Numbered from the stretch's first letter, positions 7,999-26,844 are shown. The stretch: DNA of 64,000 nucleotides from Pseudoramibacter alactolyticus ATCC 23263 (GCF_000185505.1 NZ_GL622359.1:1476505-1540504), one strand, 5' to 3'. Numbers and translations are program-made. Notes: generated by a model from the letters alone, not told the origin.

Positions 7999-8904
7999 TT
8001 ACGCCTCGTCCAAATCGTCTGCGGCATCCGCTTCCGCCTGATCGTAATAAGCGGCGATGGCCTGGGTCCCGCATTCGCCCATGCCGCGGCGTCGCAGCGC
8101 CTTATACATCGTCCGCACCGTTTCAAGCACCAACAGATGAATATCTTTCGCGTCGGATTCATTGCCGGCAATGGTCAAATCCTTGATCATATGCTTCACA
8201 TAAAATCCCGGATCGTAATCCCCGGCGGCCATCTTAGGGGCAAGGTTAGCCATTTGCCAGCTGCCGGCGGCCCCGGCGCCAATGCTGCCCAGCATCTTAT
8301 CGATGTCAAGTCCCATCATCTGGCCGTACTTCACCGCTTCACAGACCCCGGCCACCGTGCCGGCAATGGCAATCTGATTGGCCATTTTTGTGTGCTGGCC
8401 GCTGCCCGGACCGCCTTCATAAATCACCTGGCTGCCCATGGCCTTCAAAAGGGGCTGCGCCTTTTCAAACGCCGCCGGATCGCCGCCCACCATAATGGAC
8501 AGCGTCCCGGCTCGGGCGCCCACATCGCCGCCGGAGACCGGCGCATCGAGCGCCGAAAGACCGGCCATCGCCGCTTTTTTCGCAATCCGCACGGACAAAC
8601 TCGGGCTCGTGGTCGTCATATCGATGAGCAGCGCCCCGGCCGGGGCCGCTTCGATGATCCCCGGATGCGCTTCCTCACCAAAGTAAACCGACTCGACATC
8701 TTTGGGAAAGCCCACCATCGTGATCACCACTTCGGCGTCAGCTGCCGCTTCCTCAGCCGTTTCGGCCCAGCGTGCACCCTTCCGAATGAGCGCCTCGGCT
8801 TTTGCCTTCGTCCGATTATAAACCGTCAGATCGTGGCCTGCCGCCATCAGATGGCCGGCCATTGCCCCGCCCATTACACCGGTGCCAATAAATGTTATTT
8901 TCAT
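7999..8904 (-). CDS. NAD(P)-dependent beta-hydroxyacid dehydrogenase (HIBADH/GarR family)
   Basis: Oxidises or reduces a beta-hydroxyacid such as 2-hydroxy-3-oxopropionate or 3-hydroxyisobutyrate; the exact substrate cannot be fixed. The 301-residue protein starts MKITFIGTGVMGGAMAGHL, a Rossmann GxGxMG loop at residues 7-12. It has the substrate-loop signature DAPVSGGDVGARAGTL and the catalytic-lysine segment GSGQHTKMANQ. The start at 8904 is preceded by AAGGAAG at a proper distance; an upstream GTG-type extension of 11 codons lacks one. It is probably cotranscribed with the small membrane protein. Confidence 0.85.
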   Translation of the reverse strand: MKITFIGTGVMGGAMAGHLMAAGHDLTVYNRTKAKAEALIRKGARWAETAEEAAADAEVVITMVGFPKDVESVYFGEEAHPGIIEAAPAGALLIDMTTTSPSLSVRIAKKAAMAGLSALDAPVSGGDVGARAGTLSIMVGGDPAAFEKAQPLLKAMGSQVIYEGGPGSGQHTKMANQIAIAGTVAGVCEAVKYGQMMGLDIDKMLGSIGAGAAGSWQMANLAPKMAAGDYDPGFYVKHMIKDLTIAGNESDAKDIHLLVLETVRTMYKALRRRGMGECGTQAIAAYYDQAEADAADDLDEA

Positions 8905-10374: not shown

Positions 10375-13300
10375 ATTTCTACTCACACGCCTCTTGCGAG
10401 GCATGACGAAATGGAATTCTTTCTCTGTAAATTTCTTCACAATTTCTACTCACACGCCTCTTGCGAGGCGTGACTTAAAATGCGCCATAATTCCGGCGTT
10501 TTCTGCCGGATTTCTACTCACACGCCTCTTGCGAGGCGTGACAACGCCTTTATGAAACTGTCACCGACCACACAGATTTCTACTCACACGCCTCTTGCGA
10601 GGCGTGACATAAGTAGCGATCGGCTTGTCATTGTTGACGATATTTCTACTCACACGCCTCTTGCGAGGCGTGACAAAACGATGAAGCCCATTGCGAAACA
10701 GAATATGAATTTCTACTCACACGCCTCTTGCGAGGTGTGACTTTGCCCTCGTCCGCGTTGATGTATTCATCGTAATTTCTACTCACACGCCTCTTGCGAG
10801 GCGTGACTTCTGCCACATACTTTTTTAGCGCTTGCCCTTCGATTTCTACTCACACGCCTCTTGCGAGGCGTGACACAGACGCGAAGACGCAGCTCAACGC
10901 AGCGTTTAATTTCTACTCACACGCCTCTTGCGAGGCGTGACGATTAAAGGGATCACAGTCACCCTCATCACCAAATTTCTACTCACACGCCTCTTGCGAG
11001 GCGTGACTGAAATGAATGCGGATCAGTTAGCGGAGTTGGAAATTTCTACTCACACGCCTCTTGCGAGGCGTGACTTGTTTTTTCATCGCTTTCGATCGGT
11101 CTTGATCATTTCTACTCACACGCCTCTTGCGAGGCGTGACATACATGGTGTCATGTATAATATAGACATAAGATAATTTCTACTCACACGCCTCTTGCGA
11201 GGCGTGACCGCCGACAACGCTAACCGGCGGCAGTTGGCAGACATTTCTACTCACACGCCTCTTGCGAGGCGTGACAGGGCGGAGCAATTAACCGTGTTAT
11301 TAGCATTATTTCTACTCACACGCCTCTTGCGAGGCGTGACGCGCCTCGGGCGTTGTGCCAGTCTCGATTGCCTGATTTCTACTCACACGCCTCTTGCGAG
11401 GCGTGACTTGGCGTCCACCAACCCAGCCGCTCTCTCGCAAATTTCTACTCACACGCCTCTTGCGAGGCGTGACCCGATGACGAAAAGTCAAACGTTGAGA
11501 GAAGAAATTTCTACTCACACGCCTCTTGCGAGGCGTGACAAGGCTATACGCTGTATGACCACAACTCAAATAATTTCTACTCACACGCCTCTTGCGAGGC
11601 GTGACGCTATCCGTGGCGCCCTATATAGATCCGGCGTCAATTTCTACTCACACGCCTCTTGCGAGGCGTGACCCATGCTTTATGGCGAAGATGAAGAAGC
11701 TTGCATTTCTACTCACACGCCTCTTGCGAGGCGTGACACGGCGTTCCAAAATTAATCGAGGGAATGCCGAATTTCTACTCACACGCCTCTTGCGAGGCGT
11801 GACACGGCGTTCCAAAATTAATCGAGGGAATGCCGAATTTCTACTCACACGCCTCTTGCGAGGCGTGACGCGACCTTCGAGAAAGGCGACAGCGGCATCA
11901 AGAATTTCTACTCACACGCCTCTTGCGAGGCGTGACCGGGTAGCAATCCAGTTTATGGACAGTTTTCGCAATTTCTACTCACACGCCTCTTGCGAGGCGT
12001 GACACGCCGGCCCCCGAAAGGGGGCCAATTAAAATTGATTTCTACTCACACGCCTCTTGCGAGGCGTGACAAAGATATGGCGTTGAATTTAAATTCTGTA
12101 ATAAATTTCTACTCACACGCCTCTTGCGAGGCGTGACAAAGATATGGCGTTGAATTTAAATTCTGTAATAAATTTCTACTCACACGCCTCTTGCGAGGCG
12201 TGACTATCGTCTTGGCGTTCGTCGTATAAACAGCCACATTTCTACTCACACGCCTCTTGCGAGGCGTGACAATGATGGAATCACATATGATTGCATCGTT
12301 TTTAAATTTCTACTCACACGCCTCTTGCGAGGCGTGACCATAGCCACTTTCGACGGCGAAGAGCGCTTTAAATTTCTACTCACACGCCTCTTGCGAGGCG
12401 TGACCCGTGCGAAAAACTACCGATTGTACCGAAAGATGATTTCTACTCACACGCCTCTTGCGAGGCGTGACTGGTGGATTCGGGAGCACAGGAAGGTAAG
12501 CATGAATTTCTACTCACACGCCTCTTGCGAGGCGTGACTGGTGGGATTTTTTTATTGCTGTTTTTCCAAAAAATTTCTACTCACACGCCTCTTGCGAGGC
12601 GTGACGAAAACTTTAGCCGCCTGCCCGCAGCTCGGCCGAATTTCTACTCACACGCCTCTTGCGAGGCGTGACTCTATGTTTACCACGGTTCTAATTTCGC
12701 GATGCAATTTCTACTCACACGCCTCTTGCGAGGCGTGACGTGCGGACGGCGAGTTCGGCGCAGATACCGAAAATTTCTACTCACACGCCTCTTGCGAGGC
12801 GTGACTAAGATTTTTTTATATTCTTCATTGCGAATTGTAATTTCTACTCACACGCCTCTTGCGAGGCGTGACGGTCCGGAGGATGTGCATCAAGTGCTTG
12901 CTGGATTATTTCTACTCACACGCCTCTTGCGAGGCGTGACGTGAATGTAACGTCTCTGTAAACTTTATTGACAAATTTCTACTCACACGCCTCTTGCGAG
13001 GCGTGACATGCACTGATCCGCTCTGCGTTGTAGTCAAAACTTATTTCTACTCACACGCCTCTTGCGAGGCGTGACAGCATGCCTAAGTTCCGCGTATCCT
13101 GGTATAAAAATTTCTACTCACACGCCTCTTGCGAGGCGTGACGTATCTTGGTGTTGGCATTATCAACGGTATTCCAATTTCTACTCACACGCCTCTTGCG
13201 AGGCGTGACCGAGTGTTCAAGTTATTACGACTTGAGCGACGAAATTTCTACTCACACGCCTCTTGCGAGGCGTGACGTCGGACAGTTCGACGCATTCCGC

Positions 13301-16300
13301 TGGGGCATTCAGCATTTCTACTCACACGCCTCTTGCGAGGCGTGACCAGCGGGCTTGAAATTCTTTGTGATTACAAATGAATTTCTACTCACACGCCTCT
13401 TGCGAGGCGTGACCCAAGGTCTACCATCGACTGTGCAATCGGTAAGAATTTCTACTCACACGCCTCTTGCGAGGCGTGACCACAGGTTCAACCACTCAGC
13501 CGCCCAATCGCGAAATTTCTACTCACACGCCTCTTGCGAGGCGTGACACCCGGCCAGCATGTAAATGCAATCACACTTTTCATTTCTACTCACACGCCTC
13601 TTAACAAATGCATTCATTGAATAATCATTTCTACTCACACGCCTCTTGCGAGGCGTGACTGATTTTTTTGGCAGCATGCCAATTCAAGTGATTATTTCTA
13701 CTCACACGCCTCTTGCGAGGCGTGACAATCAAAATGAAATATGTTGTCACAAGATTTTGATTTCTACTCACACGCCTCTTGCGAGGCGTGACACGGCTCT
13801 TAACAAATGCATTCATTGAATAATCATTTCTACTCACACGCCTCTTGCGAGGCGTGACCTTACTTTCCGAAAAACACATGTTTTTGTATTTAATTTCTAC
13901 TCACACGCCTCTTGCGAGGCGTGACTTAATTGGGGCGGTTGCCCGCCCCACACTTTTAATTTCTACTCACACGCCTCTTGCGAGGCGTGACCCATATCAC
14001 CTGCGTTGTTCGCTCCAATGTATAAATTTCTACTCACACGCCTCTTGCGAGGCGTGACTAAAATTGGAGGTAATATATGACAAAAACATCAAATTTCTAC
14101 TCACACGCCTCTTGCGAGGCGTGACGGGCACGCCCCAAAGCAATACCGGCGTTTTCAGCATTTCTACTCACACGCCTCTTGCGAGGCGTGACCTTTACCT
14201 TCTCGTTGAGTGATGCCGCCCCGTAATTTCTACTCACACGCCTCTTGCGAGGCGTGACGGGAATCGGAAAAGCGCTGATGGCGACGATCACCGATTTCTA
14301 CTCACACGCCTCTTGCGAGGCGTGACTTGAACTCCAAAATGGTTTTAGCCTGCTCTTTGCATTTCTACTCACACGCCTCTTGCGAGGCGTGACGCCGCCG
14401 TTTACCTTTACGGTGGCAGAAAGTTAGATTTCTACTCACACGCCTCTTGCGAGGCGTGACAAGATCATTGAGGGCAATTACGCGAACCGAGGCATTTCTA
14501 CTCACACGCCTCTTGCGAGGCGTGACCAATCTGCTCCTCGGCGCGTCGGCCTTTGCCATATTTCTACTCACACGCCTCTTGCGAGGCGTGACATCGCATG
14601 CGGACACGTTTTGCTGGCCAAAGAATTTCTACTCACACGCCTCTTGCGAGGCGTGACCGCGCAAAGCTCACCACGACGCAGGCCGGTTTTATTTCTACTC
14701 ACACGCCTCTTGCGAGGCGTGACGCCAGTCTCACTGCCATCTGGATTTTGATGCTCAGATTTCTACTCACACGCCTCTTGCGAGGCGTGACAGCCGGATC
14801 GTGACGCTGCCGCCCTAATAATTCCTCATTTCTACTCACACGCCTCTTGCGAGGCGTGACTTTCCCCCTTGACGTCGCCATGGACACTAAAGTAATTTCT
14901 ACTCACACGCCTCTTGCGAGGCGTGACGCGTGTACCAGGCTGGCCGACCATGGATAATGTAATTTCTACTCACACGCCTCTTGCGAGGCGTGACTTGCGT
15001 GCCAAGCGGTGTTTTTCCCCAAAAACAGATTTCTACTCACACGCCTCTTGCGAGGCGTGACGAAGAAGCATGAAGAATATTTGACGCGGGATAAAATTTC
15101 TACTCACACGCCTCTTGCGAGGCGTGACATGGGATACCGAAAAGCATTAGAGTTCTTAGTCATTTCTACTCACACGCCTCTTGCGAGGCGTGACGCGGCA
15201 TCTGGGGCGGGCAGCGCGGCATTGTTCATTTCTACTCACACGCCTCTTGCGAGGCGTGACCTGCGGAATATGCCGAGATGCATCATCGAAGCAAATTTCT
15301 ACTCACACGCCTCTTGCGAGGCGTGACGAATCGCGTGTGGGCATGTTCTTCTGGCCGAAGAATTTCTACTCACACGCCTCTTGCGAGGCGTGACATGAAG
15401 AACACGTTGATTTCTTCCTGTGCGAAGATTTCTACTCACACGCCTCTTGCGAGGCGTGACTTGGTCCCATTGGTTTGGAATGCAACCAGCAAAATTTCTA
15501 CTCACACGCCTCTTGCGAGGCGTGACTTGAACGAAATCATCTAATCGCAGAATATAAAATTTCTACTCACACGCCTCTTGCGAGGCGTGACCTACTGCCC
15601 GTCCCATGTAAACTATTTCAAACGAAATTTCTACTCACACGCCTCTTGCGAGGCGTGACCGAGACGCTGTTTAAAAACAATGCCGACCGCGTAAATTTCT
15701 ACTCACACGCCTCTTGCGAGGCGTGACAACCGCCGGCGCCGGAGATACCGCGCAAGTCATGATTTCTACTCACACGCCTCTTGCGAGGCGTGACAACAAA
15801 GCCGAAGCTTTGCGCAAAGCTATTCGATTTCTACTCACACGCCTCTTGCGAGGCGTGACATGAATATCTCAGCGCAGGCAGCGGCAAACCTCATTTCTAC
15901 TCACACGCCTCTTGCGAGGCGTGACTTCTGGGATCACGGCGCCACAAAGGCAAACCTCCATTTCTACTCACACGCCTCTTGCGAGGCGTGACTTGCCTCG
16001 GCCCATCATTGTAAAAAATTCATTAATTTCTACTCACACGCCTCTTGCGAGGCGTGACCTATGCACCGTCGGCATTGACTATGCCAGTATGCATTTCTAC
16101 TCACACGCCTCTTGCGAGGCGTGACGCTAATGTTACCTACATGGACGACAACGCGAAAAATTTCTACTCACACGCCTCTTGCGAGGCGTGACCAGATTAA
16201 AGACCATATCAACAACATGGTCAAAGATTTCTACTCACACGCCTCTTGCGAGGCGTGACAAATCTTTAAATGTTTGTGAGTAGGCTTCAAGCAATTTCTA

Positions 16301-19069
16301 CTCACACGCCTCTTGCGAGGCGTGACAGATTTGGATTTGAAACGGCGCTAGAACAGTTTAATTTCTACTCACACGCCTCTTGCGAGGCGTGACCGCGAAA
16401 GGCTTATCCGCTGACGGCATCGTTGGAATTTCTACTCACACGCCTCTTGCGAGGCGTGACTTCGCGGACTTTATGACGACGCAAGTTGCGCTCATTTCTA
16501 CTCACACGCCTCTTGCGAGGCGTGACACAAGGAACATGTAGATTTCTTCCTGTGCGAAGATTTCTACTCACACGCCTCTTGCGAGGCGTGACGGGTGGAT
16601 TTCTGTTATGACGGCGTTCCCAACTGCATTTCTACTCACACGCCTCTTGCGAGGCGTGACGCGCGAAAGGCTTATCCGCTGACGGCATCGTCGGAATTTC
16701 TACTCACACGCCTCTTGCGAGGCGTGACGACCAGCAAAAAACCGTTCGGGCAGTCGAGATTAAATTTCTACTCACACGCCTCTTGCGAGGCGTGACTGCC
16801 CTTCGTGGTGCATTTGTATGGTCAAACCGATTTCTACTCACACGCCTCTTGCGAGGCGTGACACTATCATTTTTTTTGCGACAAATAGTTCCGACGAATT
16901 TCTACTCACACGCCTCTTGCGAGGCGTGACATTTTGGAAGGACGAATGCACCGATACGGTCCACATTTCTACTCACACGCCTCTTGCGAGGCGTGACTGG
17001 CTCCATGTATAATATAGATATAAAATAAAGAATTTCTACTCACACGCCTCTTGCGAGGCGTGACCAGACGTGGCGAATGTACACTCAAAATCTGGCCAAT
17101 TTCTACTCACACGCCTCTTGCGAGGCGTGACCGCGACCATCGTCAATAACAATGCTCACGATCATTTCTACTCACACGCCTCTTGCGAGGCGTGACTGGG
17201 GGGGTATCATGGAAGAAGTTGAAATCATTACATTTCTACTCACACGCCTCTTGCGAGGCGTGACGCCAATTTGGTTTTGATGCGCGAATCCGGCCTCATT
17301 TCTACTCACACGCCTCTTGCGAGGCGTGACCTGCCAATTTTGGATACTATAGCTTCCCACGCCGCATTTCTACTCACACGCCTCTTGCGAGGCGTGACTG
17401 GAAATCGGCGACGGATGGGCTGGCGGGTAAATTTCTACTCACACGCCTCTTGCGAGGCGTGACGGTGGGATTTTTTTATTGCTGTTTTTTTAAAAAATTT
17501 CTACTCACACGCCTCTTGCGAGGCGTGACCATGTTGGACACATCCACAACAATTGCCAATGCATTTCTACTCACACGCCTCTTGCGAGGCGTGACAAATG
17601 GGAAAGGTGGTTGAATGTTTCGCGAAAGATTTCTACTCACACGCCTCTTGCGAGGCGTGACACGGAGGGACGAACATGGAAACTGTGAATCAGATTTCTA
17701 CTCACACGCCTCTTGCGAGGCGTGACTATTTTTGGTCCATTGTCCGCCAAGTAATTAATCATTTCTACTCACACGCCTCTTGCGAGGCGTGACGGTGGTG
17801 CGACCGTCGCAACGCCACTGAAAGAAAATTTCTACTCACACGCCTCTTGCGAGGCGTGACCCGAGGCAGTTATTAGCGAACTGGAACTTTACGGCATTTC
17901 TACTCACACGCCTCTTGCGAGGCGTGACACGGGAAGCAATCCAGTTTACGGACAGCTTTCACATTTCTACTCACACGCCTCTTGCGAGGCGTGACCCGTT
18001 GCCCTTACCGTAGTCAGGATGAGCAAAACCTATTTCTACTCACACGCCTCTTGCGAGGCGTGACGGCCAGATCGTTCGACCCGTCCAGAACCGACGTATT
18101 TCTACTCACACGCCTCTTGCGAGGCGTGACATGCTTATCAAGTCGCGTGATCGACACGCCAAAGTGATTTCTACTCACACGCCTCTTGCGAGGCGTGACG
18201 ATTGCCGGACAAGAACTGTCGGTACACGTTGCAATTTCTACTCACACGCCTCTTGCGAGGCGTGACGGCCCCAAAGCACACGCCTTTTCCGCCCGCGAAA
18301 ATTTCTACTCACACGCCTCTTGCGAGGCGTGACCTGGGGAACAGTATCCGCAACGCCGTGGAGCGATTTCTACTCACACGCCTCTTGCGAGGCGTGACAG
18401 ATTATGCGCAGCAGGCAGTGGCAGTACTGGAATTTCTACTCACACGCCTCTTGCGAGGCGTGACGTTGCCCATCGTGAACGTGCCGCCGTCAGCAATTTC
18501 ATTTCTACTCACACGCCTCTTGCGAGGCGTGACCCGTGGATGATCTCGATACCACCGCCTCCAGAAATTTCTACTCACACGCCTCTTGCGAGGCGTGACC
18601 CGGAAAACCGCTGCCGGCGTTAGTGGTACTTTATTTCTACTCACACGCCTCTTGCGAGGCGTGACCGCAGTCGATCTGGCTCAAGGCAACGCGGACAACA
18701 TTTCTACTCACACGCCTCTTGCGAGGCGTGACTTTCTGGGACGGCGAACAAGAGTACGGTCAAGAAATTTCTACTCACACGCCTCTTGCGAGGCGTGACG
18801 GGGTACGGGATGCAGTTCAGATGGCAGGATTCAGATTTCTACTCACACGCCTCTTGCGAGGCGTGACGCGAGCGATGGTGATCGTCGCGCGTGATTAAAA
18901 AAATTTCTACTCACACGCCTCTTGCGAGGCGTGACTTGCGGCACCGAAAGAGCAAGCCTGTGACGCGCATTTCTACTCACACGCCTCTTGCGAGGCGTGA
19001 CCCGAATGCTTAGCGCGGGCCCGGCGAATCGGCTGGATTTCTACTCACACGCCTCTTGCGAGGCGTGAC
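10375..19069 (-). CRISPR. Type I-C CRISPR array, 131 repeats and 130 spacers
   Basis: A 33-bp repeat recurs every 65-70 bp, with spacers mostly 32-37 nt. In the crRNA (minus) sense it is GT, an 8-bp stem CACGCCTC/GAGGCGTG around loop GCAA, then TGAGTAGAAAT. This is the I-C architecture with an 11-nt handle. I counted 131 repeat starts, the first at 10375 and the last at 19037. The array is read leftward from the leader beside cas2. The leader-distal repeat (10375-10407) has one change and the repeat at 10709 another; the one at 13582-13602 is cut to 21 nt. Two tandem spacer duplications occur (11738/11804 and 12071/12138). ORFs here are artefacts of the periodic repeat. Confidence 0.98.
13582..13626 (-). 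repeat. Truncated CRISPR repeat fused to a truncated spacer copy
   Basis: Only the first 21 bases of the repeat (13582-13602) remain, joined to the last 24 bases of a spacer that is present in full at 13793-13825. The junction falls at CTCTT, a short stretch shared by repeat and spacer, so a deletion between the two copies explains it. The unit is 45 bp long instead of about 66. Confidence 0.9.
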
Positions 19070-19216
19070 GGCAACATATTGTGATTCTTTAGCTATATAT
19101 TGCTATATATTGTTTTTTTGTTTTTAATTGCTTCAATTCGTGGCCGAATATTAGATTTTTGGAACTTAAAAGTCGGCGAACATTCCGCTATTTTCTCATC
19201 ATCGGGGGTTCGCCTG
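19070..19216 (-). promoter_or_regulatory. CRISPR leader
   Basis: AT-rich, non-coding 147 bp between cas2 and the first transcribed repeat. It holds a near-perfect tandem 10-bp repeat (19091-19110, core GCTATATAT) and a T7 tract. Near cas2 there is an inverted repeat GGCGAAC (19175-19181) / GTTCGCC (19208-19214). Leaders normally carry the array promoter and the integration signals for Cas1-Cas2. Position and composition fit; individual promoter boxes are not certain. Confidence 0.75.
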
Positions 19217-19507
19217 TTAAACAATCATCACGCCTTCCGGATCATATGTCGCTTTTGCGCCAATATGTTCTACCCGCTTTTGCCAATGATTGCCCAGATA
19301 ATAAAATCTCAAACTATCCTGTTCCTGATCAATGAGCCGAATAAGCTGATCTTTCAATTTCATAAATGTCGAATAGTCCAAATCCGCTTCAAATACAGAA
19401 TTTTGCACACGCTGTGCATGATCCTGACAGGTTTTTGCTACCTTGCGCAAGCGTGTTTTACCACTGGTATCCGCCGTTGCCACATCATAACTAATTAAAA
19501 CCATCAT
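19217..19507 (-). CDS. cas2: CRISPR-associated Cas2, type I-C
   Basis: Dimer that bridges two Cas1 dimers in the spacer-integration complex. About 96 residues, starting MMVLISYDV with the conserved Asp at the end of strand 1, then the I-C typical RVQNSVFEADLD and RFYYLGNHW. Several ATGs lie close together (19513, 19507, 19504). I chose 19507 because AAAGGG upstream is better spaced. It is the last cas gene, directly before the leader. Its frame overlaps the end of cas1 only if an upstream start is used. Confidence 0.93.
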   Translation of the reverse strand: MMVLISYDVATADTSGKTRLRKVAKTCQDHAQRVQNSVFEADLDYSTFMKLKDQLIRLIDQEQDSLRFYYLGNHWQKRVEHIGAKATYDPEGVMIV

Positions 19508-19539
19508 CACCATCACCCTTTCTTTTATTAATCCGTTGA

Positions 19540-20562
19540 CTATTTTGCCAAAAAGCAAGGATAATCTTTCAAATCACCGCGAATATATTTTGCCAATAAG
19601 TTCGCCTGAACATAGGGCAGCAGGCCAAATTGGATTTTCTGCTTTAAGAAAGGATGCTGCATGGTGGTTCGTTTCTTTTCCTGCCACTTCGTCAAAACTT
19701 TTTTTCGTCCATCCTCATTGAGCCAAACAGCTCCGGAAATTTGCCGTTCGAAATCTTTTTCTCCGACAATTTTCAAATTTACTATGGTTAGCACAAATCT
19801 CTCAACAATGCATCGTGCCTCTTCCACCAAATCACAAGCTAATGATGCCCTTCCGCTTCGCAATGTATGATAATAGCCAATCGCACTGTCAAGTCCGACC
19901 GATTCTAATGCCGCCGCATATTCTGTCGTCGCCAAGGTATAAACAAAAGACAACAATGCGTTGATTGGATCCAATGGCGGGCGCTTATTTCGATATTGAA
20001 ACACAAACGGAACGGTTTTGTTGATAATCAGTTGCCCAAAAACCGAAAAATACGCTCGAGCGCAATTGCCCTCCACGCCCAGCAACATCTCTGCACTGTT
20101 TGCCGCATAGGCCGAATCAATCCCTTCTTTTAAAACGGCCACGGCTTTTTGCAGCGCCTCTGATTGCCGCAGGCGCGCATTATCATGCTGGGTCCGTTTA
20201 ATGACTTTGATGGAATTGGCAAATTTAGCCGCCATCGTATGTTGAGCAAGCATCAGCGACTGCACGCGGAAGCAATCGATTTGCGCTACTCTAAGAAAGA
20301 CGTTGCCCTTCGTCTCTCCCGATAGTTTGGCTTGAAATTTCCCTCGCGGAGAAATAAAACTGATGGGAATTTTTCGCGATACGCAAGCCCCCATTAAAGC
20401 CGGAGAACAACCGACATAAGCAAAAGACACAATCGCTTCGATATTGTCAAAGGGAACACGAAACACTTGTTTGCCCTCGATGCGGCAAACGATATTGCCG
20501 CCATCCAGTTCAAGATAGGCCTGTTCATTGGTGACATACAAGGTATTGAGTAATTTTCTCAT
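19540..20562 (-). CDS. cas1: CRISPR-associated Cas1, type I-C
   Basis: Integrase that inserts new spacers at the leader end of the array. The 340-residue protein has the metal-binding triad residues Glu164 (EGNCARAYF), His232 (GYYHTLRSGR) and the acidic D244/E247 in LACDLVEEAR, so it looks active. Its ATG overlaps the cas4 stop by 4 bp, indicating translational coupling. Cas1, Cas2 and Cas4 together form the adaptation module. Confidence 0.97.
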   Translation of the reverse strand: MRKLLNTLYVTNEQAYLELDGGNIVCRIEGKQVFRVPFDNIEAIVSFAYVGCSPALMGACVSRKIPISFISPRGKFQAKLSGETKGNVFLRVAQIDCFRVQSLMLAQHTMAAKFANSIKVIKRTQHDNARLRQSEALQKAVAVLKEGIDSAYAANSAEMLLGVEGNCARAYFSVFGQLIINKTVPFVFQYRNKRPPLDPINALLSFVYTLATTEYAAALESVGLDSAIGYYHTLRSGRASLACDLVEEARCIVERFVLTIVNLKIVGEKDFERQISGAVWLNEDGRKKVLTKWQEKKRTTMQHPFLKQKIQFGLLPYVQANLLAKYIRGDLKDYPCFLAK

Positions 20563-21221
20563 GTTTCCTCCTCAGCCAATTGATGAATCTCCCGCCGAAG
20601 ATCCCAGAGCCGCTTGCGCGTACCCGGCAGGCAAATGTCCTTAATCGAACACCCGCCGCAAAATTGTTTATCGCGAATCGGCGGAATATCTCCCGTTGTC
20701 AAATGTCTGCGGATCGCTGTAAGAATCTCCTGCATTTTTTGTTTATACGCATCATAGTGCTCCCGAATCGGCAATAGAACGCGTCGCTTGCTGTCCGCAT
20801 AATAAATCACCGCATCGCAATCCGTTTTAAAAATCGCATCCACGCAAACCTTTTGCGCGAACACCTGCATCATGTCCTCGGGATGATAATTCTTGTCCTT
20901 CGGCTGATGCGGTTTGTATTCCACAATGGTCATCGGTTTTCCGATCAAATCCTCAAGACTTTTAGCAGAAGCAGAAGTTTCCAAACAATCAGCATAACCA
21001 TAAATTCCCCAGCCATCATGATACAAGGGCACCGATGTGAACACATGTTTATTTTTTGCCGTATAGCCGCTCTTGGCATCATGCACTCGCTGGTGAATCA
21101 AATTGGCCCTGGTCACATAATAATTTTCCGACCAGACTTTATCAATTTCCAAAAGCCCCCAACGGTGCGGACAATATAAATAGTGCTGCAGTGATCGAAT
21201 TGAGATACTTTCCTCATTCAT
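20559..21221 (-). CDS. cas4: CRISPR-associated Cas4 exonuclease
   Basis: RecB-like nuclease that trims prespacers and sets PAM-dependent length and orientation with Cas1-Cas2. The 220-residue protein has an iron-sulphur cluster formed by Cys17 (YLYCPHR) and the C-terminal group CGGCSIKDICLPG, plus the nuclease motif IVEYKPH with its Lys. It starts 5 bp after the cas7 stop and overlaps cas1 by 4 bp. It is separate from Cas1, not fused. Confidence 0.96.
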   Translation of the reverse strand: MNEESISIRSLQHYLYCPHRWGLLEIDKVWSENYYVTRANLIHQRVHDAKSGYTAKNKHVFTSVPLYHDGWGIYGYADCLETSASAKSLEDLIGKPMTIVEYKPHQPKDKNYHPEDMMQVFAQKVCVDAIFKTDCDAVIYYADSKRRVLLPIREHYDAYKQKMQEILTAIRRHLTTGDIPPIRDKQFCGGCSIKDICLPGTRKRLWDLRREIHQLAEEET

Positions 21222-21225
21222 CGGT

Positions 21226-22089
21226 TTAATAGATGGTCATGTGGACCCCTTCCGGCATCGTTTCGTCTATGGTGATGGTATAATCCGAAAACTTTCTCGG
21301 TGGCTGATCGGTATTTTTTTCGATGGTTACTTTATCAAAAAGCTGCCATGACGGCGCATTGCCCAACACTGAGTCATGTTCGAATACAATTAAACGCCGC
21401 ATGCGCATCTCCCCGCGCGCTGCACTGTGATCAAGTTCAAACATATTTATCAGTGCCTCCCAAAGCAATGCAACGTCCGCTTCGGAAAGATCTGTCACCT
21501 TATTTGCCAGCGCAGCAGAAATATGTCCCTGCGCCATATAAAGACCATAGGGAATGATGCTCTTATTGCCCATTTCACCGCCGCCGGATTCCTGAAGTTT
21601 GGTTTCATCGGTTCTGGCCTGCCGCGTGATGGTCAAATCCATCACCTGAACCGGCGACAGACTTTTTGCAAAACTGATTTGAACCGGCCCCCGGACAATC
21701 CCGCAGGGGTTGTCCCCCGTTGACATCACCGCGCCGAACGCGCGTACATCAAAATAATGCTCACACATATAATCCCGAGCTTTCAGCACGTCCGGTGCCG
21801 TCTTGCTCTTTTCCTTTTTCCCGGTTTCCAATCCCAGCGCCTCATATGCCTCCGTAAAACGGGTATTGAGCGCCTTGTCCGGTTTAACCAAAATATTATA
21901 GTGTGCTTCGCCTTCCTTCACGACATCCACATAATTCCGGATCTTGCGCTTCAAACAAACATCGGTGATAAAACCAATATTGGTTTCTGCATCGACCCGC
22001 GGACTGTTACCAGCGTCCGGGTCCCCATTAGGGTTACCGTTTTCCACATCAAAAATCATCATAAAGTCATAGCGATGTTTTAAAGCCAT
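21226..22089 (-). CDS. cas7: Type I-C Cascade backbone protein Cas7 (Csd2)
   Basis: Multimerises along the crRNA spacer to form the Cascade filament. The 287-residue protein opens with MALKHRYDFMMIFDVENGNPNGDPD, typical of Csd2/Csh2-type Cas7. It contains VRAFGAVMSTGDNPCGIVRGPVQ, the family RAMP-core segment. It lies between cas8c (30 bp gap) and cas4 (4 bp gap) in the standard I-C order. Confidence 0.97.
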   Translation of the reverse strand: MALKHRYDFMMIFDVENGNPNGDPDAGNSPRVDAETNIGFITDVCLKRKIRNYVDVVKEGEAHYNILVKPDKALNTRFTEAYEALGLETGKKEKSKTAPDVLKARDYMCEHYFDVRAFGAVMSTGDNPCGIVRGPVQISFAKSLSPVQVMDLTITRQARTDETKLQESGGGEMGNKSIIPYGLYMAQGHISAALANKVTDLSEADVALLWEALINMFELDHSAARGEMRMRRLIVFEHDSVLGNAPSWQLFDKVTIEKNTDQPPRKFSDYTITIDETMPEGVHMTIY

Positions 22090-22119
22090 TGTTCTTCTCT
22101 CCTTTGTGTTCTTAAAAAT

Positions 22120-22476
22120 CTATTGCCGCTTTTCATACAATTTAGCGTTCTGATGATAATAACCAATCATAAATTTCCCCTGGTCCTGCAGGCTTTGTGT
22201 CTTGGGAAATTCGCCGCTGATCAGCGCGATAATTTCTGTCATTAACCGCTGATAATAAACGCGTGAACCCTCGCCAAGCTTTTTCAAGTGACTTTGACTC
22301 AACTTAATCAATTTTGGAAAAACCATCGCAGGGTTTGAAGATGCCGATGCAAAATACGCATCTTTGATGGTGCGGTTGAGTTTGCCGCCGCTGGCATCTT
22401 GCTGAATTTTTTCTAATACCGCAAAAAATCTGCCGCAGACATAAGCCGGACTGCTGTTGGTCGTATCTAATGCCAC
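22120..22476 (-). CDS. cas11c: Cas11c small subunit from an internal start within cas8c
   Basis: Type I-C Cascade is known to need a small subunit made by internal initiation inside cas8c. Here GTG at 22474-22476 (codon 483 of cas8c, in frame) is preceded by a perfect AGGAGGT at 22484-22490 with a 7-nt spacer. The product would be 118 residues, starting at VALDTTNSSPAYV and ending YEKRQ, helical in appearance. Family knowledge supplies the role; the ribosome site and frame are seen directly. An ATG about 10 codons upstream is a weaker alternative. Confidence 0.75.
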   Translation of the reverse strand: MALDTTNSSPAYVCGRFFAVLEKIQQDASGGKLNRTIKDAYFASASSNPAMVFPKLIKLSQSHLKKLGEGSRVYYQRLMTEIIALISGEFPKTQSLQDQGKFMIGYYHQNAKLYEKRQ

Positions 22477-23922
22477 TTGAAGTACCTCCTCATTCTTCTC
22501 GTTATTCATCCGCATCCGCCGATTAATGCAGGCTTTGATCATCGCTGCCCGCGTATGACTCACTTGCCGCTCTGTCTTTACCCGCCGAATCATCGTTGCT
22601 AAAAGATTTTCCGGATAAGGTGTTCCTTTGACGATCGCATCAAAAAGTTTTGCGACCAAAGCCGGCGACGGCTGAGCCTGTGAGCTCTTTTCTGGAACCA
22701 TGGACCGGGCAATTCGCCATAATGGAATCAATTGCCTTTCAGGCCCGATTTGAAGATCTGCCTGATGCTTTGCCACATGCGCCAACATCTGCCCGGTGGC
22801 TTGCCGCTCCATAAATTTGATCGACAGCCGGCTGGCGTTCGGCTTGATGCCAGCGATGTAAAACAGAATGCTCGGATCGATTCCCGCATTGCGGCTGAGC
22901 CTTTCGCCGGAAACAGCTCCTTCCCGCAAATCGGAAAACAACTGACCTATCAGGGCGTCTGCTGCCTCCGGGCTCATGTGTGCCGCCTCAGCGTTGATCA
23001 AAAGCGTCATCAGATCCACCGGGCGGTCGTCGTCTGTCATCGCCCAAAATAAAACAGATGTTTCACCGATGGTTATTTTGTGATTTGAATTTGCCGTCAA
23101 ATAATTCAATGCCGCCGTGTAGCGTTTCATGGTGCGCTCGCCGATGCCGCTGTTAAAGGACTGCTTGTTGCCATAAGACTCTTCCGAAGCATTATTAAAA
23201 CCGACCAAAACCGTTCCGGACATTTGACCTCCGGCAATGTGCTTGATTTTGTCATGGATTCTCGCCAGCACCTGCTCCTCGCCATCAACGGCATCTTTGC
23301 CCATCATCGTATTCGCCTTTGGTGCTTGGCGCATTTGTTCCCATTTTGCAATCATCAGCGGATCCTTTTGCAGCGTGTGAATCGGATCGTCGGCAAGACA
23401 AAAATCAAAACGCGATTGATTAAATTCTTTTGCGATGCCCAAAAGTGCCGGATTTTGAATTTCCACTTCGGGTTGCCAGCTTTGAAGAAACGCACGATAA
23501 GCATTAATCACTGGCGAATCCAATCCGTCAATAATGTCGAGATTCATCTTGACAAACGCATCATGAGATTTTTGTTCTTTGTCCGAGATTTTGCCGTTTT
23601 TCTTTTGTGGTCTCGAGGTGAATTGCCCTTTCGCTTTATCGTAGAACAATCCAAAGATATAGACGGGCCGATAATCCAAAATAATGGCTTTAACAGCAGA
23701 CGCCGTCGGCATATCGGGAAATGATCTTCCGGGAATAATAGCACGCTTTCTCTTGCTATTCGCAATAACTTCCTCCCGCCGATTATCGATAATCCGATCA
23801 ATCTTGCCATCCGGCGTCAAACAAATCGTGTGGGTAATCTCAATTTCCGTATATCCCGGTTTTGGCAATTTCCCCGCTTGGATGAGTAATTGATAATAGT
23901 CGCATAACGCATTGATTAACAT
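22120..23922 (-). CDS. cas8c: Type I-C Cascade large subunit Cas8c (Csd1)
   Basis: Recognises the PAM and recruits Cas3. The 600-residue protein is close to the Csd1 average length, with the family N-terminus (ALCDYYQLLIQAG), the FGLFYDKAKGQ segment, and SYGNKQSFNSGIGERTMKRY in the middle. Its start overlaps the cas5c stop by 7 bp. The last fifth also encodes the separate Cas11c subunit. No disruption is visible. Confidence 0.96.
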   Translation of the reverse strand: MLINALCDYYQLLIQAGKLPKPGYTEIEITHTICLTPDGKIDRIIDNRREEVIANSKRKRAIIPGRSFPDMPTASAVKAIILDYRPVYIFGLFYDKAKGQFTSRPQKKNGKISDKEQKSHDAFVKMNLDIIDGLDSPVINAYRAFLQSWQPEVEIQNPALLGIAKEFNQSRFDFCLADDPIHTLQKDPLMIAKWEQMRQAPKANTMMGKDAVDGEEQVLARIHDKIKHIAGGQMSGTVLVGFNNASEESYGNKQSFNSGIGERTMKRYTAALNYLTANSNHKITIGETSVLFWAMTDDDRPVDLMTLLINAEAAHMSPEAADALIGQLFSDLREGAVSGERLSRNAGIDPSILFYIAGIKPNASRLSIKFMERQATGQMLAHVAKHQADLQIGPERQLIPLWRIARSMVPEKSSQAQPSPALVAKLFDAIVKGTPYPENLLATMIRRVKTERQVSHTRAAMIKACINRRMRMNNEKNEEVLQVALDTTNSSPAYVCGRFFAVLEKIQQDASGGKLNRTIKDAYFASASSNPAMVFPKLIKLSQSHLKKLGEGSRVYYQRLMTEIIALISGEFPKTQSLQDQGKFMIGYYHQNAKLYEKRQ

Positions 23923-24650
23923 CGCTGCTCTCCTCTGTATTTTGCCACATCGATCACCCCGTCAATCAGATGCGGCCGGTAATAAATTGTTTCTGCGGCA
24001 TCTGAAAATTGGTCTTTGCGCCATTCGCCCTTTCTCGGGCGGCCCTCGTCCTTAAAAGCCACCTTATACGTCATAAAGCCCAGATCGTTATCGCCGGCCA
24101 AAGACGAATCAATTTGTTCCAAATCAAAGGCCTGCACCCGTTCAATGCGCGAGGCCGGGAATTCGCTGCAGCCCAAGCACGGGGTTCTAAAAAACTGACC
24201 GCGATCGAGACGCCGGGCAATTTCTGCCTGATGTTTCGCCGCCGGATTGCCTTCTTTATTCTCCCGTTCACAGCGAATCCCTGTCAACTCAAAGTGAAAG
24301 GCCACGCCATAACACACATCCTTGAGGACCATCGATGCCCGCTGACTGATCGATTCCGTTGTGTAGATGCAAGGATTGACTTCGGGCTGGCCGTTCATCT
24401 GCTGCTTCATTTTCGTCTGAGAAATTTTATCCTTCACTTCGTTTCGGCGGATATTCACAAACTTGATCGGTGAAAACACCACAATCTGATCAATCACATA
24501 CCGAATGGCTGGCTTCCAATAGATCGATTTTAACAGCCCCTCCAATGCGCCGGGTGTCGGCACGTCGTAGGATACGCGTTCAACTTTGAATTCCGGCCGC
24601 GTAAAACACGCATAATCTCCTGAAATCATCACTTTAAAACCATAACCCAT
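23916..24650 (-). CDS. cas5c: Type I-C crRNA endonuclease and Cascade subunit Cas5c (Cas5d)
   Basis: In type I-C, which lacks Cas6, this protein cuts the repeat RNA at the base of the stem and stays bound to the 5' handle. The 244-residue protein begins MGYGFKVMISGDYACFTRPEFKVERVSYDV, as in the family. It contains TPGALEGLLKSIYWKP and the later GCSEFPASR loop. No cas6 is present in the locus, which agrees with this role. It is followed by cas8c with a 7-bp overlap. Confidence 0.96.
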   Translation of the reverse strand: MGYGFKVMISGDYACFTRPEFKVERVSYDVPTPGALEGLLKSIYWKPAIRYVIDQIVVFSPIKFVNIRRNEVKDKISQTKMKQQMNGQPEVNPCIYTTESISQRASMVLKDVCYGVAFHFELTGIRCERENKEGNPAAKHQAEIARRLDRGQFFRTPCLGCSEFPASRIERVQAFDLEQIDSSLAGDNDLGFMTYKVAFKDEGRPRKGEWRKDQFSDAAETIYYRPHLIDGVIDVAKYRGEQRC

Positions 24651-24669
24651 CTTTTTTCATCCCCTTTTG

Positions 24670-26844
24670 TCACACAATAAAATAATCTTTGCCTTCAAAT
24701 TGAATCCCCGTTTCGGCATCATAGTAATCCAAATTGGTCAGACACCAAATGCCCGTGCCATAATCATCCAGAACCCCTTGCTCACGCAAAACATTAAACT
24801 CGTATGAATACACAGAGAGGGCATAGGGCTGTAACCTTCTGGCGATGCCCAAAGATGATTTTGCAAAGGACAACTGCGACACCCAGGATCGGCTCACCTC
24901 ATCTGTCGGCACAACAATCGACACCGTCTTTGAATCAATCAATTGAAACTGCTCTCCATAGGATTTAAACTGCAGCACGGAAAAATCCGGTGAAAACTGG
25001 TGCATGGCATGCCGCGTCAAGTCTTCCCGATTCACTGTGTACCAATTTTGATAATAAGCCTCGATCGCTTCTGGCGTATCAATTTGCTCAAACCGATTGA
25101 AAATCCCCTTGGCCAAACTGCTCCTAGCATCTTTATCCGGACTTTTTTCTGCTTCGTCTAATTCAAACACATACACATTGGCCGTTGCTTGTTTCCCTTC
25201 GCGATTGCAGCGACCTCCAGCCTGCAAAATACTGTCGAGCCCCGATAATTCACGATAGACCGTATCGAAATCGAGATCCACACCCGCTTCGATCAAGGAC
25301 GTGGCCACAACCAAAATCGGCTTGCCGTCGCGATGTGCCAATCGCTCTTTGATTTCACGAATCGTTTGCAGTCGGTCCGCCGCGATCATGTAAGTCGACA
25401 AATGATATTTGTGGCAATCCTCCGGCAGCATGGCATAAATTTCCCGGGCGGTCCGCCGCTTATTCACCACGATTAACACCGCCGACGCCGTGCTGGCACC
25501 GGCCACCAACACTTCTTTTGACATCAGGCCGACATCATGATATCGGCATTTCTGAAAGATGACAAAATTCCGCCGATCATCAATCAAATCCAGAATCTGC
25601 ATATCCGGCAACGTATATCGGGTAAGCAATGCCTTAAAATCCGGCATGGTCGCCGTTAAAAACAATGCCTCACTGTTTAAATAACGCACGGTAAATGCAA
25701 CGGCCTGCAGACAGGGCTGCAAGAAATTGGTAGGCATCAGATGCGCTTCATCGAAAATGACGATGCTGTCTGCCACATTGTGCATTTTGCGCAGCTGTCG
25801 CTTTTTGCTGCCGTTCATCGATTCGAAGAACTGGACGGCTGTCGTCACGATGATGCTGGCATCCCAATTTTCAACCGCATGTTTTAATTCGATGCGCACT
25901 TCTTCACGCGCATCGATATCATCATAAGAAAAGGTAGACTGGTGCCTTAAAATCCGCGCATCTTCACCAAAAATCGTTTCAAAAGTGCTGACTGTTTGGT
26001 CAATGATGCTGTTGTAGGGAATCACATAGATAATATGCCGGTAGCCTTTGCGGATGGCCCGCATCAATGCAAATTTCATGCTGCATAGGGTTTTGCCGGA
26101 TCCCGTCGGCATATTCATCAGATAAATCTCGGCATCGCGATCTGCCTTCGAAAATGCTTGTTCCTGCAGACTCCGCCGCGTCTTTTGCAGCGCCGTCTTG
26201 CAAACAAAGCCATCCAGCTGCCTGTCGATACGCTCCAAACAAGCCCGGAAATCAGAACGCACCGTCCGGCGAGAAGTGCCGGTATAAAACGCCTCTGTAT
26301 CCAGATAATCCGCATCCGTCAGACAGGAAAAGCAAAATCGCGTTAAAAACGCCAGTTTATCTGTCAGGCATTTCATGTCTTTTTGACAATCGTCCGCGAT
26401 AAATTGTGCCAGAGCGTTCTCATCCAGACAAAGTTCCGGCATCTCTCGACGAAAAACCGAGTAATCTTCAAACTGATCCTGCCGATTGATCCGCCCGTAA
26501 AGGGTCGATCCGTCATCCTGCTTGGAACCGGTGTCCGGCAAACCGGAGTGATGCCCCGCGATACAAAGGGCCAGCATCAGCCGTGTCACCGGCGTCTGGT
26601 AATGGGTCATGGCTTCAATAGCGCCGCAAGTTGAATGGTCCACCCGAATATTTTTACCGCGAATGCGCTTTTGAAAGCTGTTTTGATATTTCCCAATATC
26701 GTGAAGCATTCCCAAAATATAAGCCAACGGTTTCAATGCCGAAATCGCAAAATCAGCGCTTAATGCCGCCGTATTTTGGCTGTGCTCTAAAATGGACTGT
26801 TCCCGTTTGCCGTCTAAATGCGCAAGATACGAACTCATTGCCAT
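24670..26844 (-). CDS. cas3: CRISPR-associated helicase-nuclease Cas3, type I-C
   Basis: Unwinds and degrades target DNA after Cascade binding. The 724-residue protein carries an N-terminal HD nuclease (His21, HD at 48-49, HH at 98-99 in GHHSGLPD). An SF2 helicase follows with Walker A PTGSGKT, the DEAH box IVIFDEAHLMP and motif VI QAGGRCNREGK. All catalytic motifs look intact. It is the first gene of the operon; the ATG follows AGAGGTC. An A/T-rich region upstream (TAAAAT at 26890-26895) may hold the promoter, with only a weak -35 candidate. Confidence 0.97.
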   Translation of the reverse strand: MAMSSYLAHLDGKREQSILEHSQNTAALSADFAISALKPLAYILGMLHDIGKYQNSFQKRIRGKNIRVDHSTCGAIEAMTHYQTPVTRLMLALCIAGHHSGLPDTGSKQDDGSTLYGRINRQDQFEDYSVFRREMPELCLDENALAQFIADDCQKDMKCLTDKLAFLTRFCFSCLTDADYLDTEAFYTGTSRRTVRSDFRACLERIDRQLDGFVCKTALQKTRRSLQEQAFSKADRDAEIYLMNMPTGSGKTLCSMKFALMRAIRKGYRHIIYVIPYNSIIDQTVSTFETIFGEDARILRHQSTFSYDDIDAREEVRIELKHAVENWDASIIVTTAVQFFESMNGSKKRQLRKMHNVADSIVIFDEAHLMPTNFLQPCLQAVAFTVRYLNSEALFLTATMPDFKALLTRYTLPDMQILDLIDDRRNFVIFQKCRYHDVGLMSKEVLVAGASTASAVLIVVNKRRTAREIYAMLPEDCHKYHLSTYMIAADRLQTIREIKERLAHRDGKPILVVATSLIEAGVDLDFDTVYRELSGLDSILQAGGRCNREGKQATANVYVFELDEAEKSPDKDARSSLAKGIFNRFEQIDTPEAIEAYYQNWYTVNREDLTRHAMHQFSPDFSVLQFKSYGEQFQLIDSKTVSIVVPTDEVSRSWVSQLSFAKSSLGIARRLQPYALSVYSYEFNVLREQGVLDDYGTGIWCLTNLDYYDAETGIQFEGKDYFIV

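Follow-up and report, generated by a model that had tools for sequence, protein, structure and literature searches.

The type I-C CRISPR array of Pseudoramibacter alactolyticus ATCC 23263 holds pairs of spacers that are nearly but not exactly alike, which raises the question of whether such spacers were copied inside the array, resemble each other by chance, or were taken separately from related phages, and whether their differences record phage escape. A complete type I-C operon and its array lie within the window, the whole 64,000-nt stretch of DNA that was analysed, and its coordinates are used below unless another record is named.

19217..26844, minus strand: type I-C cas operon, cas3-cas5-cas8c(csd1)-cas7-cas4-cas1-cas2, with Pfam matches for all seven genes
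19070..19216, minus strand: presumed leader, AT-rich, between cas2 and the first repeat, assigned from position and composition
10375..19069, minus strand: type I-C CRISPR array of 130 repeats of 33 nt and 127 distinct spacers, with its leader side at high coordinates; repeat on the transcribed (minus) strand, GTCACGCCTCGCAAGAGGCGTGTGAGTAGAAAT

The type I-C assignment is based on cas3, cas5, cas8c (csd1), cas7, cas4, cas1, and cas2 standing in one operon, a repeat of 32 to 33 nt with a stem-loop and a GAAAT-type 3' handle, and spacers of about 33 to 36 nt. The repeats are almost all identical to each other, and a degenerate last repeat at 10375-10407 marks the trailer end. Because cas2 and the AT-rich stretch adjoin the high end of the array and its low end finishes in a degenerate repeat, the newest spacers lie at high coordinates. 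Spacers were numbered from S1 (newest, 19002-19036) to S129 (oldest, 10408-10441).

The first-pass annotation had named six pairs of similar spacers. All 12 of the intervals that it gave coincide exactly with spacer boundaries.

17929..17962, minus strand: S17, newer member of S17/S106, starting 1 base later than S106
11937..11970, minus strand: S106, older member of S17/S106
16661..16695, minus strand: S36, newer member of S36/S40, 35 nt, antisense to AKGLSADGIVG (a peptidoglycan-binding lysin motif)
16394..16427, minus strand: S40, older member of S36/S40, 34 nt, with a single difference from S36, at seed position 4
16527..16559, minus strand: S38, newer member of S38/S55, with differences only at positions 20, 23, 29, 31, and 32
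15395..15427, minus strand: S55, older member of S38/S55
17464..17496, minus strand: S24, newer member of S24/S97, AT-rich, 33 nt, with differences at positions 6 and 7
12539..12572, minus strand: S97, older member of S24/S97, 34 nt
16998..17031, minus strand: S31, newer member of S31/S118, reaching 4 nt over the S118 PAM position, where it reads CTT
11141..11175, minus strand: S118, older member of S31/S118, a promoter-like AT-rich sequence
15328..15361, minus strand: S56, newer member of S56/S67, 34 nt, antisense IACGHVLLAE
14593..14624, minus strand: S67, older member of S56/S67, 32 nt, antisense IACGHVLLAK

The spacers were compared all against all in both orientations, with ungapped identity taken over the overlap. 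Identities were 33/34 for S36/S40, 31/33 for S24/S97, 29/33 for S17/S106, 28/33 for S38/S55, 25/30 for S31/S118, and 25/32 for S56/S67. The six pairs have the highest scores after exact copies (31.5, 28, 23, 20.5, 17.5, and 14.5), far above those of 60 Markov-shuffled spacer sets that followed the average composition. The list of six is correct and also complete, because the next-best candidate scores 9.0 and the maximum in the shuffled sets averages 7.5 and reaches 11.5. That candidate, S48/S124, was dropped as a seventh pair since 10% of the 60 shuffled sets score 9 or more. The pairs had been described as far apart in the array, which does not hold for all of them: S36/S40 are separated by only 4 units. 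S56/S67 are 11 units apart, and the three widest pairs are separated by 73 to 89 units. The extent given for them, 11141-17496, leaves out the member at 17929-17962.

Recombination between repeats is a known source of repeated spacers within an array, and the present array contains such products.

12071..12171, minus strand: S103=S104, exact tandem duplicate, an array rearrangement
11738..11836, minus strand: S108=S109, exact tandem duplicate, an array rearrangement
13548..13626, minus strand: chimeric unit of spacer S82b, a truncated repeat, and a fragment of a second S79 copy, joined at a CTCTT microhomology

These two duplicates and the truncated S79 copy (S79/S82a), all missing from the first-pass annotation, differ in origin from the six pairs. 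The structure of the chimeric unit fits a history in which a unit was duplicated and 21 nt between CTCTT microhomologies were then lost. Unit duplication is thus real in this array, and the six pairs could in principle be duplicated units that later mutated; however, true copies here are 100% identical and adjacent or 3 units apart, with the common ends that such recombination gives, whereas the six pairs differ by 3 to 22% and have unrelated neighbours. In addition, five of the six differ in ends or length despite the near-identical repeats. The lengths are 35 and 34 nt in S36/S40, 33 and 34 nt in S24/S97, and 34 and 32 nt in S56/S67; S17 starts 1 base after S106, and the start of S118 is four bases inside S31. 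Substitutions in a copied unit cannot move its ends, which argues that each member of the pairs with different ends came from its own acquisition event. Duplication followed by mutation is therefore extremely improbable as the source of the pairs.

Chance resemblance of low-complexity sequence concerns S24/S97 and S31/S118 only. Both pairs are AT-rich and could derive from unrelated replicons with simple sequence in common, and a 27-nt match to S24 in a genome of the same family (L010) was itself dropped as an AT-rich chance match. Nevertheless, both pairs score above the null maximum of 11.5 (28 and 17.5, respectively), and chance similarity is highly improbable even for these two. S31/S118 is less secure than S24/S97, since the null follows the average composition.

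The reading that we favour, with good though not complete confidence, is that the two members of each pair were acquired independently by the type I-C system, at different times, from one site (usually with the same PAM) in temperate phages that were related and had already diverged, and that several of these sites lie in conserved phage genes. The first-pass suggestion that the same protospacer was taken from different phage variants agrees with the different ends, the reused starts, the differences compatible with coding, the lysin motif of S36/S40, and an overlap between the type II-A and type I-C arrays. Independent acquisition is supported by the sequence, from which we infer the phage sources and the priming. 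In type I-C systems, the protospacer is preceded by TTC as its PAM, which reads GAA on the far strand (PMC5071653). New spacers would be cut at TTC-type PAM sites by the adaptation proteins Cas1, Cas2, and Cas4, and because the PAM fixes the start of a spacer, a later meeting with a related phage would give a spacer with the same start and a few changed letters. The first base is the same in four of the six pairs, as expected from a PAM-fixed cut with the same PAM used twice. In some cases, the newer spacer may have been acquired through priming by the older one, which still matched the site in part.

Coding content was examined by comparing the residues kept in each pair with those kept under random placement of the differences, taking the best of six frames. 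The S36/S40 frame, AKGLSADGIVG, is a peptidoglycan-binding motif that four IMG/VR lysins contain, and in this frame the only base difference between the two spacers is synonymous. S56/S67 keep 9 of the 10 residues of IACGHVLLA(E/K) over 7 base changes (P = 0.024). S17/S106, in the frame GSNPVYGQ(L/F)S, and S38/S55 also keep 9/10 residues, and neither is significant alone (P = 0.35 and P = 0.18, respectively), so that, taken pair by pair, the codon evidence is weak for all but S56/S67. For S38/S55, the frame SHRKKSTCS considered at first was replaced, the antisense frame (E/K)EHVDFFLCE being equally conserved, and no relative was found for either frame. The differences in the coding pairs mostly fit synonymous drift between related phages, not selected escape mutations. 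Conserved phage genes are matched by other spacers too: S127 matches the tape-measure gene of the cell's own prophage perfectly (see below), S98 encodes the dUTPase end GGFGSTGR, and a prophage from the same genus has sequences related to S66 in its integrase and to S63 in its replication initiation protein.

The pair members might instead have been drawn from paralogous or repeated genes in one phage genome, or from one mixed infection, and would then carry no time information. Peptidoglycan-binding motifs are repeated inside some lysins (L146 and L147), and the closeness in the array of S36/S40 and S56/S67 (4 and 11 units) favours such a source. However, the single difference in 34 bases between S36 and S40 makes them closer than motif repeats within a lysin, the separation of the three widest pairs is against paralogues in one genome, and all six different sites would need to be duplicated. 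We therefore regard this explanation as improbable.

The genome (2.36 Mb) carries types I-C, II-A, and III-A together, as reported previously for this strain (PMC6739104), and the other two arrays were compared with that of type I-C.

L057:9780-10540 (own genome C1, about 2223880-2224640): type II-A array with 11 spacers, beside cas1-, cas2-, and csn2-like genes
12673..12706, minus strand: type I-C spacer S95, with a 25-nt overlap with II-A spacer 4 and one mismatch
L157:319-1976 (own genome C1, about 1262118-1263775): third array, close to the type III-A cas10 and split into two blocks whose repeats differ slightly

The overlap of S95 with II-A spacer 4 is an independent, seventh case of variant sampling, in which a second system would have met the same phages. 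II-A spacer 7 resembles a site beside the cell's own prophage, with 4 mismatches (L064). The comparison of the III-A-associated spacers with those of type I-C gave no overlap.

Protospacers for the pairs were sought in several collections. A blastn search of the array against 50,697 phage records gave only a solitary repeat and one weak match; the 12 pair spacers had only weak matches in phage records (E values of 2 to 5), the P1-type ones of which crossed a separator, and none in plasmids. Exact and codon-degenerate patterns for four of the six pairs gave no protospacer in IMG/VR, and neither did one pair pattern in genome_contigs. The relatives searched likewise yielded none for the pairs. 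All spacers were also compared with 80 relatives that the cell's own prophage has in IMG/VR; these contained homologous but nonmatching sites and none for the pairs. An IMG/VR match to IACGHVLLA (L060) was dropped, as it lies in a high-GC contig with no plausible gene at the match.

The number of same-site pairs can also be read as a birthday-problem estimate of the size of the phage pool that a host meets. The 127 distinct spacers form 8001 possible pairs, and 4 to 6 same-site pairs imply about 1300 to 2000 effective PAM sites, equal to 35 to 52 kb if sampling is uniform and TTC is as dense as in the region of the cell's own prophage. This suggests that the spacers were drawn from a limited group of related phages, about one phage genome's worth if sampling is uniform; with hot spots of acquisition, the true pool would exceed this estimate. 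Variant spacer pairs in one array preserve a record, readable without phage genomes, of how a host has met related phages again and again.

The first-pass annotation had further proposed that the pairs may record recurrent exposure to one evolving phage lineage or escape from earlier spacers. In the newer variant, the seed of the older spacer is mismatched (at positions 1 to 5, 7, or 8) in five of the six pairs. As computed for positions 1 to 8, 3.8 such pairs are expected by chance given the observed number of differences (P of at least five, 0.26), which does not support escape. Array positions likewise fall into no eras, the apparent old-era/new-era pattern of the three wide pairs not being significant (P = 0.27), and the single evolving lineage is not supported. 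An arms race, in which one lineage mutated its seed or PAM, escaped, and was sampled again at the same site through priming, would agree with these seed differences, with S36 and S40 differing at seed position 4 alone at a distance of 4 units, and with S31 covering the PAM position of S118, where it reads CTT and not TTC; there is also a precedent for escape and priming in a type I-C array (PMC5071653). Against it stand the chance expectation for the seed, the differences of S38/S55, which all lie outside the seed, and the largely synonymous changes of the coding pairs, a mark of long drift. An arms race is thus possible but unlikely, an estimate that overlaps with that for the main reading; the escape reading is allowed by the sequences but not supported by the seed or era tests. 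A stronger proposal, in which the array dates how one lineage repeatedly broke the seed or PAM of recorded sites and was recorded again there by I-C and II-A in parallel, appears distinctly unlikely. Should protospacers be discovered, seed escape could be tested with the six pairs on natural, time-ordered data.

Repeated sampling of related phages is already known, and the present array is a new, richer example of the kind described by Rao et al. (2016) for Legionella pneumophila str. Toronto-2005, whose array, also of type I-C, contains overlapping spacer pairs against the element LME-1 (PMC5071653). In both arrays, spacers of different age are directed against the same or overlapping sites. 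A further likeness may lie in the newer member of the Legionella pairs having fewer PAM or seed defects (PMC5071653). Those authors inferred repeated invasion by related elements with possible priming, and their priming experiment gave two independently acquired spacers on the same protospacer (PMC5071653). However, the target element was sequenced and priming was tested in the laboratory for Legionella, whereas the present pairs are known from spacers alone, and, unlike in the Legionella case, the six pairs here are spread over 129 intervals. Primed adaptation in type I systems, in which an old spacer that matches an invader imperfectly can stimulate further spacer uptake from it, is another possible parallel. 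Taking the identical site a second time is not known to be, by itself, a signature of primed adaptation.

Two spacers match the cell's own genome. The newest spacer, S1, has a perfect 35-nt match to the pyrC-like (dihydroorotase) gene at L056:10001-10035, with AGC as its 5' flank, or CTC if insertion was in the flipped orientation; this non-TTC flank may explain the survival of the cell. S127 (10543-10575), among the oldest spacers, matches perfectly the tape-measure gene of the cell's own prophage at L055:10004-10036, with the 5' flank ATT and C as the first spacer base, as if the cut had slipped by one and spoiled the PAM. The flanks AGC and ATT, in place of TTC, would fit tolerated self-targets. 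A 2019 survey listed self-targeting in this strain only for III-A (PMC6739104). The same prophage encodes, beside its tail genes, a 756-aa protein (L055:6682-8952) in which ricin-type beta-trefoil lectin domains are repeated and which is probably a receptor-binding or tail-associated protein.

The solitary repeat found among the phage records lies in MT836150.1 (L042, reversed; 8604-8679, minus strand), a phage scaffold from human feces with terminase, portal, head, SSB, and dUTPase genes, and is identical to the I-C repeat at 31 of 33 positions. It is preceded by a TATAAT box, which a consensus promoter scan did not list, and a strong intrinsic terminator lies downstream of it (fold z-score of -6.3). 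Because this layout is that of the Racr anti-CRISPR RNAs (PMC10651486), the solitary repeat is a candidate RacrIC.
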